NCBI GenBank assembly: GCA_020541285.1
Contig: CP047043.1
Coordinates: 372,001 to 436,000 of the forward strand
From: Candidatus Gillettellia adelgis
GTDB lineage: Bacteria > Pseudomonadota > Gammaproteobacteria > Enterobacterales > Enterobacteriaceae
Direction: 5' to 3'
DNA: 64,000 bases
The position numbers were made by a program, and so were the translations under genes. Under the pieces are notes generated by a model that had not been told where the DNA came from, searched no databases, and worked only from the letters and a program-made list of their open reading frames with translations. Positions within the stretch are counted from its first letter, which is position 1. Each line of letters opens with the position of its first letter. Of this stretch, positions 11,085 to 36,307 are shown piece after piece.

Positions 11085-12560
11085 TTATTCACAGTTGTTC
11101 CAGGCACGCCCATCTTGAGCGATCATCTCTACCGAGGCTATAGGCCCCCATGTGCCAGCCTGATATGGTTGAGGCGCTTCGTTATCTACTTGCCATGCGT
11201 TGATGATAGAATCAACCCATTTCCACGCTTCTTCTACTTCGTCACGCCGTACAAATAACGCTTGAATACCACGCATGCTTTCTAGCAATAAGCGTTCATA
11301 AGCACCTGCTCCATGTTCCTGAGTGAACGTTTTTGGGAAACGTAGATCTAACTTGGTGGTCTGCAAATGGTGTTTATGATCTAGTCCTGGTGTTTTATTT
11401 AGCACTTGGATTTCGATACCTTCATTGGGTTGAAGACGAATGGTTAACTTATTCTGTGGGAGTTGTTTGTGATAATTGCTAAAAAGATTCAGCGGTGGAT
11501 TTTTAAAATATACTACCACTTCTGAACACTTGATGTGTAGACGTTTACCGGTGCGCAGGTAGAATGGCACTCCAGACCAACGCCAGTTATCGATATCTAC
11601 GCGGATTGAGACGAAAGTTTCAGTATGACTATTTTTATTTGCCCCTTCTTCCTCTAAGTAGCCAGGTACTTCTTTGCTTTGAATAAAACCACCTGTATAT
11701 TGTCCGCGTACAGTAGTTTTATGTACATTGTCTTTATCAATGCGTCGGAGCGATCGTAGTACCTTGACTTTTTCATCACGGATTTGGTCAGCCGATAAAT
11801 CTTTTGGAGGTGACATAGCGATCATAGTTAAGATTTGAAGCAAGTGGTTTTGGACCATATCACGCATTTGGCCTGCTTGATCGAAGTAGCCCCATCGTTT
11901 CTCAATACCTACATCTTCCGCTACAGTAATTTGTACAGAATCAATAGTGCGGTTATCCCAGTTAGAAGAAAAAAGTGAGTTAGAAAATCGCAAGACTAGT
12001 AGATTTAATACCGTTTCTTTGCCGAGATAATGATCTATACGATACACTTGTAATTCATTGAAGTACTTAGCTACTTGATCGTTAATTGCGCGACAAGACG
12101 CTAGATCTGTGCCCAATGGTTTTTCTATAATTACGCGTGCTGGTTCATGATGTAGTTTTGCTTTTCCTAATCCTCGACAAATCGTATTAAAGGTGCTTGG
12201 TGGCATCGCAAAATAGTTAATGGTAATTCGATGTTTTTGATCTAGCATATGACCGAGCTTGATGAAATTTTTACTATCATTCACGTCAAGATTGAAGAAA
12301 TTCAAGCGGACGCTCAACGTAGCCCAAATTTTATCATCTAGTTTTTCTTTCATAAAGGTAACAAGGGCATCTTTTACTATTGCAGTGTAGATTTTTTTAT
12401 TCCATACAGCACGACCAACACCAATAATCCGTGTATCTGGATGAATATACCCAGATTTTTCCAGTTGATACAAGGAAGGGATGAGTTTACGACGTGTTAA
12501 ATCGCCTTTTGCGCCAAAAATTACCAGGTCACAGGGTTGAGATATACAAGTTACTTCCAT
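11085..12560 (-). CDS. zwf: Glucose-6-phosphate 1-dehydrogenase
   Basis: Oxidises glucose-6-phosphate to 6-phosphogluconolactone with NADP, the entry step of the oxidative pentose phosphate route. 491 aa, the E. coli length. The nucleotide-binding motif is FGAKGDLTRRKL (about 15-26). The active-site signature RIDHYLGKE contains the substrate-binding Lys and catalytic His region. WSGVPFYLRTGKRL is also conserved. AGGAGA precedes the ATG by about 6 bases. A very long hairpin (12581-12630) lies just upstream. Confidence 0.98.
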   Translation of the reverse strand: MEVTCISQPCDLVIFGAKGDLTRRKLIPSLYQLEKSGYIHPDTRIIGVGRAVWNKKIYTAIVKDALVTFMKEKLDDKIWATLSVRLNFFNLDVNDSKNFIKLGHMLDQKHRITINYFAMPPSTFNTICRGLGKAKLHHEPARVIIEKPLGTDLASCRAINDQVAKYFNELQVYRIDHYLGKETVLNLLVLRFSNSLFSSNWDNRTIDSVQITVAEDVGIEKRWGYFDQAGQMRDMVQNHLLQILTMIAMSPPKDLSADQIRDEKVKVLRSLRRIDKDNVHKTTVRGQYTGGFIQSKEVPGYLEEEGANKNSHTETFVSIRVDIDNWRWSGVPFYLRTGKRLHIKCSEVVVYFKNPPLNLFSNYHKQLPQNKLTIRLQPNEGIEIQVLNKTPGLDHKHHLQTTKLDLRFPKTFTQEHGAGAYERLLLESMRGIQALFVRRDEVEEAWKWVDSIINAWQVDNEAPQPYQAGTWGPIASVEMIAQDGRAWNNCE

Positions 12561-12580
12561 ATTAATCTCCTGGTATCAGG

Positions 12581-12630
12581 ATATCTGTATACTGCAAATA
12601 CTGTGTCTAGTATTTGCGGTATACAGATAT
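12581..12630 (-). promoter_or_regulatory. Long hairpin upstream of zwf
   Basis: Arms 12581-12602 and 12609-12630 are 22 bases each, complementary except for one position that is G-U compatible in RNA of one strand. The 6-base loop is gtgtct. The hairpin ends 20 bases before the zwf ATG and just ahead of its ribosome-binding site, so it would lie in the zwf leader or overlap its promoter. A role as operator, terminator/attenuator or messenger stabiliser is inference; no T-run follows. Confidence 0.7.
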
Positions 12631-13686
12631 AAATGATATTTATAATCGTTAAAGACGTTTACTTTTTATAAAGAAACTCTTCTATTACCTTAATAGTTAC
12701 GTAAACCATAGGCAGACGTCAGAATTTTCTTCTCTTTTTATAAATTCTCAGATAAAAGAACATATGCTTAGAAAAATCCATCTTACTGGATGTTAAAAGC
12801 TTTAATTTTGACGTGATTACTTCGACTATTTGCTTGCATGAAGTTTTGTATATCGTAGTGTTAATGAACATCTGAGCAATTAAAAGTCAAAATATAAGAT
12901 GAAATTTTCTAAACAGTTGTTGGAGTATAGTATAAATTATAAAGAATTTATTAATTATCTAATGGATTATTCGTATCTCAACAAAATAGACTATCATAAT
13001 TTCATTGATCGATAGCAGACGATCCGCTATATACTGATTGAGATATTAGTATTTGTAGTGAAAATATTCTAGTTATAAATATATAATGTTATATATACAT
13101 ATACACATTAGAAGCGCAGTGACCACAAAAGATACAGCTAATCTAGCTAGTTACAAATGTAAGATATTAAATATCAAAAGATTACCTGTGTTATTACCAC
13201 CACAGTTGTTGATTAGATCATTCAAAAAGAAATTGTTCATCCTTGATGATGGTTGTTACCATACAAAATTAATATAATATGAATTAATAATGATAAATTT
13301 GTGTTTGATGATGTTTGTTGTTATAGCGCTAGCCTCAATCTAATAGATAGTTCGTAAAAAGTAATCACTGAGTATATAAGATGGCATTGGTGTTTATGTT
13401 TTTTAGGGTTTTTAGTAAACATCTATGCTATTTCATAGCATATTTACAAGATATAACGACAATTATATTACAAAATAATGATAACTATCAAATATTTAGG
13501 GATAATACTTTAAATGAATTAAGTATATACTAAAGAGTATTAGATCGTTAAGAATCCTTAACTTATATATCTCATAAGACATAGTTATATAATCAGAAGG
13601 AAAAATACGAAGAGTCATGTCATAGTCCTCTCTCTTCTAGCATCTGCAGGCTATTAGCATGGATACTACAAAAGTAGATGTATGAA
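12631..13686. other. Eroded gap between zwf and minE
   Basis: No intact gene. In E. coli hexR and pykA lie beyond zwf, and in Serratia/Yersinia-type genomes rnd follows minE. A weak minus-strand resemblance to RNase D near 13560-13640 was judged insufficient. The 63-codon frame at 13086-13277 has no recognisable motif. Confidence 0.45.
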
Positions 13687-13962
13687 TTATTTGGATTTCT
13701 TTGCATCTCCCGGATCCGGTAATGTTATGTTAAGCTCAAGTACTGAAATATCATCTTTTTTTTGTTCAAAGTTCACATGCAAGATTTTAGGATCGCTTTG
13801 AATATATTTGCAAATCACTGCTAAAATATCGCGCTTTAAATCAGGTAAATATGGAGGTTCTTTATCGCGATGACGATGTTCTGCCACGATAATTTGTAGC
13901 CGTTCTTTAGCGATATTAGCTGTCTGTTTTTTGCAGGCTAGAAAGAAGTCTAATAAGGCCAT
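13687..13962 (-). CDS. minE: Cell-division topological factor MinE
   Basis: MinE stimulates the MinD ATPase and displaces MinC, driving the pole-to-pole oscillation that places FtsZ at midcell. 91 aa against 88 in E. coli. The membrane-targeting N-terminus MALLDFF, the anti-MinCD helix [16 protein letters not shown], and the dimerisation/topological domain [20 protein letters not shown] ... [14 protein letters not shown] are all intact. The GGAG ribosome-binding site lies 7 bases before the ATG, within the tail of the dead minD. Its partners are destroyed immediately upstream, so it is an orphan unless another MinD exists elsewhere. Confidence 0.96.
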
Positions 13963-32716: not shown

Positions 32717-33730
32717 GCATTTAAGTAGACGTTTAACGCAATGCGAAGTATCTTCAGCTTAATAAGGTGTATATGTTTATTATGGAAATTGGTGTATATG
32801 TGAGGTTCTCTTAATTATTTTAGTCATCTAGGAGTAGTAGTCACCGCAAATAAAATAAATTTATCTCTAAGGTTTAGCTTGTAGTTCAGTGCAGAAAGCT
32901 TTTTCAATGGGTTCTAAATTGATATAGCCAATTATTATTTATATTCTATAAATTGTAATATGTTTGCATATGAGTATATGTTTCGGGATAAAATCCTATT
33001 TTAAATAGCTAGTTTTACTATGACAGTAAAATTGCGATGGTCTAAGACGATTTAACAGCTAACTGTTTCGTATAAGTATAATAACGCTAAAGCGATTGTA
33101 ATAATAGATAAAATACTGACTAATTCTATAACATTATTATATAATATAAGAGGAAAAGAAATACGATGATTACCGAAAGCGTCAGTGGAGTACAAATATT
33201 GTAGAATTTTTTTTGACAGAATACGTATTGATTATAGTATGTTAGTGTTTTACTAAAGTAGGATTTGTCAAATATATGATATTCAAAGTAGTAAGGAACG
33301 CTGTAAGGATTGTGTTTTATGACGGAAGTTTAATATCATATTCATTGACCTAATTGTTTTACCAGCCACGAACTGAATCACTTGATTGATTGATTCTTAT
33401 AATATGAATGAGGCGTAAGTTACATACTATGCATTGCGAGATTTTTGTACATGCGAGTTATGTGTTATTTTTATTGCCAGTTTATTCTTAGCTCAGGAGA
33501 ATTGATTAATAGTTAATGATTTAATGAACTTTGTCTATGTTTTAAAATGCATCAACCGTTAGAAAAGATCAAAACAACCCTTAATATATCAGATATGACT
33601 ATTATGTGATAATAAAATGCATACTATTATTACCTTTTTCGTTAGTGATGCGAAGCTTTGTATTTTATAAGCCGAAATTACATGCTATATAGAGTATAAT
33701 CTATGCTTTAGACGTCTGCGCGCGATGCGC

Positions 33731-33758
33731 AATACCGCATCTTGCAAGATGCGGTATT
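33731..33758. repeat. Perfect 28-bp palindrome
   Basis: Half site AATACCGCATCTTG is mirrored exactly. It could fold into a 12-bp stem with a TGCA loop. The surrounding bases (cgcgcgatgcgc before, gactccttcgctgccg after) are also GC-richer than the region. No T-run on either side. Confidence 0.75.
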
Positions 33759-36307
33759 GGAAGTAGACTCCTTCGCTGCCGTGAAGATTAATTACTATAG
33801 CACCTATAAACAAGTGATCGATAAAATGCTATGTGATTAATAATGTCATGCAACATATTTAGTATGTTAAGTATGTTTTTGCATAAAAACCATTGCGATG
33901 ATCTTAGTACTCAGTGATTTAAGCACCATTATATCAATCAATTCTTTATTACCTAAACAAGTAATATTCAATGAGCATTTAAAATTTTACGCTATTCCAC
34001 TAAGCAGATCTCTTATCAATATAGTTTATTTCAGCTATACTAAAAACTAGTGGTATTTACGGAGAGGATATAGAGGATATAAAAGAACTATTAGATGTAC
34101 ACAGTTATTAGTTGTAAAGACACTGCATGCAATTTTAGAATCTATAACAAATATAGATATAATAAAGGTGAAATGCAGTATTTCGTATAAAGTTGTGGTG
34201 TTTTGAATTTAAAATGCCTACGGTGTAATTGTTTCTATCTATTATAGGAACACTAAATGCACGATGCATTGTAATAAAATATACAGAGTGGTAGTTATTA
34301 GAGTAGTTGTATTGGGAGCTAAGTTCCTGATAAACTACAAATATTCCAGATTAAAAAGTACTAACTGTTTTGTGCACTATATAGATGATAGTTATATAAA
34401 AAAGTTAAGTATCGTGCTAGACGCTTTTAGTTGTTAAAGATAGGAACGTTATAAATTCGAAGAATGAAACAATAGTAGGACACTGTATAAATACAGTAAA
34501 ATTAATCATTTTATGTTAATAAGGATATCTACATGTCTAATGCTATAGACGCTTTAATGAATACATATTTAAAGTTGCTTTTAAAGCAGCATAAGTGATA
34601 TTAATTTTTAACCAGTCTTATACAACTTAAGCTATATATTGTGGTATGAGACGCTTGGTATTTATTAAGATACTATCTTTAACGAAAAGGGATATATGGT
34701 TAATATTGCTGTTAATTGATAAATAAGTTAATTATAAGTGTAAACAGCAGATAACAAACCTAAAATATAGAGTGTAAAATTATGATAATAGTTGATGCTC
34801 TATATATTAAATATATTTAACAGTTTTCAGTGGTCAATCAACGTGTAGTGCAAGATTTGTTTACATTAGTATGCTGTCTTTTAATGTTCATTTTATGGTT
34901 ATCTTCAAAGCTAAACCCATGATCACGTTATTATATCGAAAACTGAGTTTAACATGTAGTTTATTTCTTGTAGTACAGTCCACATGCAATACTATTAATT
35001 GCTTGCGTTAGGAACAGCGTGTTTGCTATAACTTTTATTTATAATTATCATAGATAATTAGCAAATTATTATAGTGAGCAACTGAACATAATATATAATA
35101 TTGCGTTAGTAGATTAGGTATAATAATTTATCTAAATAAGGAAATAGTTAGTGATTTTAAAAGTGTATTAAAATCTTAAGATTAACGGTGTATATTATCT
35201 GCTAGTAGTAATTTACTTTTGCAAAATAAAGTGTTGGTACGATCAACCGTTTACTAACTGCGTTTGATAGAGACAGTACTGTAAAGCTTAATATTATTTT
35301 ACATGAGTAGGTAATAAAATTAGCATAATGCAGTAATCGATTTCGTAGTGGTTGCTAGGTGGTTTTAGAATGATTCTTTTCTTCATGGCTAAATTGCTAA
35401 CGAAGAACAGATTATTCTCTTGTGCCTCAAGGATTACCAATTAAGATTGGGGCTTCGCCCTGTTACATAAAATAGTTACATTGTTCTAACGTTTACCCCA
35501 CAAAAATGCTCAGAGCATGGCGAATTATTAGCTTTCCTAGGTTGTTATCCTTAAATATCAATAAACACCTTAATAGCAAATGAACTAGCATTGATCAAAT
35601 GTAAGTCAGCTACTCAAGGGATCAGAGAAGTTAGTTTGATTGCAGCCAACGTCGTGAATAGGATTACTGTGTCTACTAGATGTACTTTTGTATCGAACAC
35701 GCCATCAAAATTTTGCATATGAGGTCCGTGTAGTTCTTGACAGGAATGGCACTCAAACACGAAAGACTTGATTGATGTAGCTAGTGCCGTAAGAGCTCTA
35801 AATTAAGAGCAATGAGTGAATTCATGTATTTAACCTCATAATTTAAAAAATTAAAAAGGCCTTTATTTTATGAAATATTTAGTGAATACGCCACGAGTAA
35901 CACTGGAATATTTATCAATTAGAATATTGAACAGTGATAAAACACTCTTTTATCACCTATATTGATATTTCTTACCTGGTGAACGCTGCTTGGTTTTTTT
36001 GATTTTTATCGTCATTAAATTGACGATTATACTAAAAGAAAACACTGAGATCAGTTGTAGTACTTATACAGCAAATTATAAAATATACATTAGATGAACA
36101 GGTTATTTTCTATCATAGAAGGCAATATTATTGCTATGTTAATGAATAAATAATGGTATATTAAACGGAGGAATATTATCTTTTTAAAAGATCTTTTGTG
36201 GCGCAGTTTTTATGAGCATATTGGCACTAAACAATGCATCGAAAACTGGTTAAAAGTATCACTATCTTGCTTCTATTATCGTAATATTTAGATTAAAATA
36301 TTATGAA

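Follow-up and report, generated by a model that had tools for sequence, protein, structure and literature searches.

The window (the whole stretch of 64,000 nucleotides that was analysed) belongs to a genome consisting of a single contig of 1,413,209 bases, with a G+C content of 33.7% in the 464 kb sampled from it. As shown in Table 1, an intact zwf gene is preceded on the minus strand by its Shine-Dalgarno (SD) region and by a 50-nt inverted repeat, and the region beyond the repeat, which stands between zwf and minE, contains no recognisable gene. The zwf protein is closest to that of Serratia symbiotica Sm Midelt (84%), followed by that of Serratia marcescens (83%), and in the zwf tree the window pairs with a 1.0-Mb genome (G015, support 99/88) near the S. 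symbiotica rows, where the branches are long. As judged from the protein similarity and the tree, the host of the hairpin is a reduced Serratia-related symbiont.

Table 1. Positions of the features at the zwf locus, of other palindromes in the same genome, and of elements in the zwf leaders of other genomes.
Feature	Position	Strand	Remarks
zwf, glucose-6-phosphate dehydrogenase, intact, 491 aa	11085..12560	-	NCBIfam TIGR00871, 635 bits
Shine-Dalgarno region of zwf, AGGAGA	12566..12571	-	Seen in the sequence; kept in relatives
Hairpin 3' arm (zwf strand)	12581..12602	-	Outer 9 nt (12581-12589) agree with the ancestral Serratia leader at 8/9
Hairpin loop, 6 nt	12603..12608	-	
Hairpin 5' arm (zwf strand)	12609..12630	-	Out of match with the ancestral leader in register
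Region of ~1 kb without recognisable gene, upstream of zwf	12631..13686		Place of hexR in relatives; no hexR remnant found
30-bp perfect palindrome, no spacer	window 33730-33759		Noncoding DNA
52-bp perfect palindrome	L126 17564-17615		Noncoding DNA, same genome
55-nt palindrome, 27-bp arms, 1-nt loop	L137 17790-17844		Noncoding DNA, same genome
~245-nt insert of Serratia symbiotica	L035 2710-2953; L048 1091-1335; L052 (degraded)		
Covarying zwf leader hairpin	L224 235-284; L013, L015-L017, L020, L021, L025, L028, L098-L113; L088, L095, L100, L108-L114		

Structure of the hairpin

The repeat consists of two 22-nt arms, which pair at 21 of 22 positions, and a 6-nt loop, and the foot of the stem lies 20 nt 5' of the zwf ATG, outside the SD region. 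A sequence-only reading had described this hairpin upstream of zwf, and its coordinates, arm length, loop and distance of 20 nt from zwf were all confirmed exactly. The odd pair is located at stem position 13 (coordinates 12618 and 12593), where it is T/G on the plus strand and C-A in the zwf mRNA. The G-U compatibility that had been ascribed to this pair holds for an RNA of the plus strand but not for the zwf mRNA, which is read from the minus strand and carries the C-A mismatch.

The inverted repeat is real and far beyond chance. Under a base-composition model, repeats with at least 21 of 22 pairs and loops of 0-20 nt are expected 4.5e-5 times per window and 3.3e-4 times per 464 kb, and four first-order Markov simulations, each covering 464 kb, yielded no palindrome with the score of 19 that the zwf hairpin has. 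Folding of the leader RNA, which had been proposed as a check, gave a strong stem: the zwf-strand RNA of the hairpin has a folding energy of -26.1 kcal/mol (z -10.8), and none of 200 shuffled sequences folded equally well. The hairpin sequence is single-copy in its own genome.

In computed folds that include the stem, the SD region is unpaired with a mean probability of 0.23-0.32, against 0.26-0.30 when the stem is left out, and the values for the AUG ranged from 0.06 to 0.50 depending on the transcript start chosen. According to this computed accessibility, the stem would neither hide nor free the SD region. None of the promoters near the stem stands out, with 6 promoter-like sites found against 8.3 expected by shuffling. 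The nearly unchanged SD accessibility and the lack of a standout promoter and of a terminator favour a nearly neutral stem.

Comparison with related leaders

No comparable repeat was found in the zwf leaders of 108 of 108 relatives (29 + 79), none of them of the same genus. A set of 60 relatives contained no same-genus genome. The 79 leaders are those of 80 loci less one, L097, which was too short. The top palindrome score in the 108 leaders was 13, at a site 154 nt away (L029), against 19 in the window. Absence from sister strains had been named beforehand as evidence against the proposals of the sequence-only reading, and absence is what these leaders show. When the hairpin sequence was searched for at E <= 0.001, matches were obtained in 10 of 392 genomes, one of which was the window's own. 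One match, in G383, reaches the 3' arm, and the locus proved on reading not to be a zwf leader; the remaining matches are short and partial, and three of their loci were inspected. Sharing of the hairpin with other genomes was dropped on these grounds, and the hairpin is best read as young and specific to its lineage.

The leaders of the free-living Serratia rows (L036-L047, L049-L051) give a picture of the ancestral state. All 15 have a promoter-like TACATT and a palindromic HexR-type site, TGTAAGAAAATTACA, followed by AAATATCCTGCAACGAGGAGATGAACATG, and L049 differs from the others by one base. The TGTAANNNNNTTACA-type consensus, which was seen in the relatives, is taken here to be the HexR operator. 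The window retains the downstream part of this leader, TACAGATATCCTGATACCAGGAGATTAAT, with 23 of 28 positions identical with L036, and no HexR-like site with up to two mismatches is present in 250 nt of its zwf leader. The HexR query gave no match in the window's genome, where PF01418 stayed below the cut-off, and the identical query, as a positive control, gave full-length matches in all three free-living Serratia-like genomes. Among three reduced genomes, it had no match in G029 and G015 and weak matches in G013. The ancestral HexR operator is gone from the window leader, and hexR is no longer detectable.

In Serratia symbiotica, an insert of ~245 nt with inverted ends of the GCTGTGTCCGG / CCGGACACAGC type lies between the -10 region of zwf and the HexR operator.

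Other palindromes in the genome

The zwf palindrome is not unique in its genome, because the 464-kb sample (the window and 20 further stretches) contains 16 palindromes with a score of at least 13, where each Markov simulation gave 0-3, and none of the 16 overlaps an open reading frame of at least 70 aa. The zwf palindrome ranks fourth among them. The 16 are mutually dissimilar, and some are terminators, such as the one at L143:18710, which is followed by an apparent reversed 5S rRNA as judged by eye. A 52-bp perfect palindrome lies upstream of a nupC-like open reading frame, whose homologues in all three Serratia-like genomes examined are not preceded by it. In a search for an ancestral arm of the palindrome at 33730, a 21-nt stretch overlapping the left arm matched one of three free-living Serratia-like genomes.

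Other genomes also contain such palindromes, which counts against an unusual mutational regime in this one. The free-living G016 has 20 with a score of at least 13 in 400 kb, many of which resemble terminators. Twelve of the 20 were not flagged as terminators, but the flag is too narrow, since an obvious terminator (L143:18710), at the least, escaped it. The reduced genomes G029 and G015 have 31 and 172, respectively, where the G+C content of G015 is 19.5% and its simulation gave 18. The nuclease genes sbcD and xseA were undetected in three reduced genomes (the window's own G000, G015 and G029) and are present in G016; exonuclease I is kept in all four. Loss of palindrome-processing nucleases as the cause of the palindromes is suggestive only, because the free-living G016 also has many palindromes and exonuclease I is kept throughout. 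As judged from search results, no paper dealt with this hairpin, with a stem-loop in the zwf leader, or with an excess of palindromes after loss of sbcCD.

Origin of the hairpin

The two arms differ in their relation to the ancestral leader. In an in-register alignment with the leaders of the 15 free-living Serratia rows, the 3' arm matches at 8 of its outer 9 positions and at 5 of its inner 13, whereas the 5' arm matches at 0-1 of its outer 9; in the inner 13 nt, neither arm is clearly ancestral. The difference between the outer arms suggests an ancestral side and a new one. The outer 3' arm is thus probably the ancestral sequence and the outer 5' arm a newly made reverse-complement copy of it. 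Such one-sided ancestry is the trace expected if a template switch had copied the leader in inverted form.

Template switching is documented as a maker of perfect hairpins (PMC8794818) and as a process that perfects quasipalindromes in E. coli (PMC7202029). The window hairpin is like the mutations treated in these papers in having a reverse-complement copy beside its source and a near-perfect stem, and also in fitting an origin by a single event with a later mismatch. It is different in that the putative event is here read from one genome, without a sister genome for comparison, and that the inner stem has no known source.

A short template switch during replication may have copied the zwf leader back as its reverse complement, and the new palindrome would have fallen where the HexR operator lay in the ancestor. 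With hexR no longer detectable in the genome, nothing obvious would have selected against the palindrome. If it is transcribed with zwf, a strong stem would form with its foot 20 nt before the start codon and outside the SD region, so that translation could proceed. We lean towards this reading, in which the hairpin is a young, lineage-specific and mostly neutral palindrome made by a template switch. Several observations count against it: the inner 13 bp and the loop have no identified source, and no same-genus sister is among the genomes compared; no ancestral arm was identified for the other palindromes of the genome; the palindrome-rich G016 leaves the class not shown to be special to the symbiont; and the hairpin coincides in position with covarying zwf leader hairpins of two families, which neutrality does not predict.

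The proposals of the sequence-only reading were partly borne out by these results. A recent duplication, which was one of them, fits best when taken in inverted form, as the stem has 21 of 22 pairs, is single-copy and absent in the relatives, and has one partly ancestral arm. An operator for a dimeric regulator found no backing, since hexR is no longer detectable, its operator is lost, and nothing points to another regulator. An RNA structure controlling translation is weakened and still alive, as described in the last section.

The operator, perhaps a diverged HexR site, is a very improbable explanation. The palindromic HexR-type site of the relatives occupies the same place in the zwf leader as the window hairpin, and PMC5343134, which treats the HexR operator of zwf in Gammaproteobacteria, describes HexR as regulating zwf locally in Enterobacteriales. 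However, the reading was set aside because the HexR site is missing from the leader and hexR is undetected. The hairpin also has no second copy in the genome, and its near-perfect symmetry over 50 bp is far longer than that of the operator and exceeds what one dimer needs. Only slightly less improbable is what would be left of a mobile element of palindromic or MITE-like type, to which the inverted-end insert in the same promoter of S. symbiotica (L035 and L048) and the similarity between the hairpin loop, AGACACAG, and an end of the insert, GGACACAG, might point. However, a search of the window's genome with the insert gave no match at E <= 1, where no positive control was included, and a repeat family was discarded as no other copy of the hairpin was found there, the 16 sampled palindromes not being alike.

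A transcription terminator or attenuator, which a strong stem ahead of a gene might suggest, can hardly be expected here: there is no T-run on either side, which led to its rejection, and no terminator-like site was found in 12500-13700. Operator and terminator are therefore both unlikely. The chance of a sequencing or assembly artefact in the form of an inverted chimera is comparably slight. Chimeras can generate near-perfect palindromes, and such palindromes recur in this genome, but the one-base mismatch between the arms, the unpaired loop of 6 nt, and the register of the leader, which is correct with respect to the relatives, argue against it. A known RNA family was also rejected, as the Rfam scan of the window gave only tRNAs at the gathering threshold, the other matches being sub-threshold chance matches to microRNA models.

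Leader hairpins of other families

Between the HexR operator and the SD region, zwf leaders of two types share a hairpin that covaries: those of the Enterobacteriaceae type (19 rows, E. coli among them), with a score of 0.289 against 0.173 for shuffled alignments (0/500), and those of the Erwiniaceae type (10 rows), with a score of 0.383 against 0.242 (1/500), where the rows were picked by leader type and length and the shuffle controls leave relatedness in. Eight rows of the former type and two of the latter were placed in their group by the leader. The covariation of both types also exceeds that of slid controls. The E. coli leader alone folds no better than its shuffles (z 0.45). None of the four loci scanned gave an Rfam match to this covarying hairpin. 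The supposition that a zwf leader of the E. coli type has no such element holds only in part, as a shorter hairpin occupies that place.

The window hairpin is like these hairpins in lying between the (former) operator and the SD region with its foot at about 20 nt before the ATG: the distance is 18-21 nt in the Enterobacteriaceae type, 23 nt in the Erwiniaceae type, and 20 nt in the window. It differs from them in sequence and in length, having 22 bp against about 5-10. None of 18 short leaders of Serratia and Yersinia folds better than z -2, which indicates that the hairpin of the window arose newly at this position and was not inherited from a common ancestor with the hairpins of Enterobacteriaceae and Erwiniaceae.

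A functional leader hairpin, gained anew after HexR control was lost, might protect the zwf mRNA or keep the landing site of the ribosome clear, a role that the shorter hairpins of Enterobacteriaceae and Erwiniaceae may also have. The covarying hairpins in the same slot, the agreement in foot position and the intactness of zwf are consistent with this explanation, and the proposed control of translation by an RNA structure draws on the same hairpins; the distance of the foot from the ATG and the nearly unchanged SD accessibility speak against such control. Furthermore, the nearest relatives have no such hairpin, the stem of the window is unrelated in sequence and much longer, and no promoter just upstream of it stands out. 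The positional coincidence could be ordinary, because the rows were selected as described above and only zwf leaders were compared. The E. coli leader alone gives no signal of unusual stability. A function of this kind is a serious but rather unlikely explanation, and we consider the young palindrome made by a template switch to be the better one.

A wider proposal, which is doubtful, would be that the zwf mRNAs of Enterobacterales carry a cis-acting hairpin, hitherto undescribed, in the leader between the HexR operator and the ribosome site, that the Serratia lineage is without it, and that the symbiont regained one by a single template switch after the loss of HexR. If true, one mutation would here have created a regulatory RNA element. 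The hairpin is moderately interesting, chiefly through its positional coincidence with the zwf leader hairpins elsewhere. It provides a clean example of how a long, nearly perfect stem can arise in a leader that did not inherit one, here in a genome that no longer has the old regulator, and it led to the covarying zwf leader hairpin of Enterobacteriaceae and Erwiniaceae.

In Ewingella, a match to the Rfam KDPG-aldolase RNA RF03115 (73 bits) was observed at L094 5278-5363, ~0.8 kb downstream of zwf.
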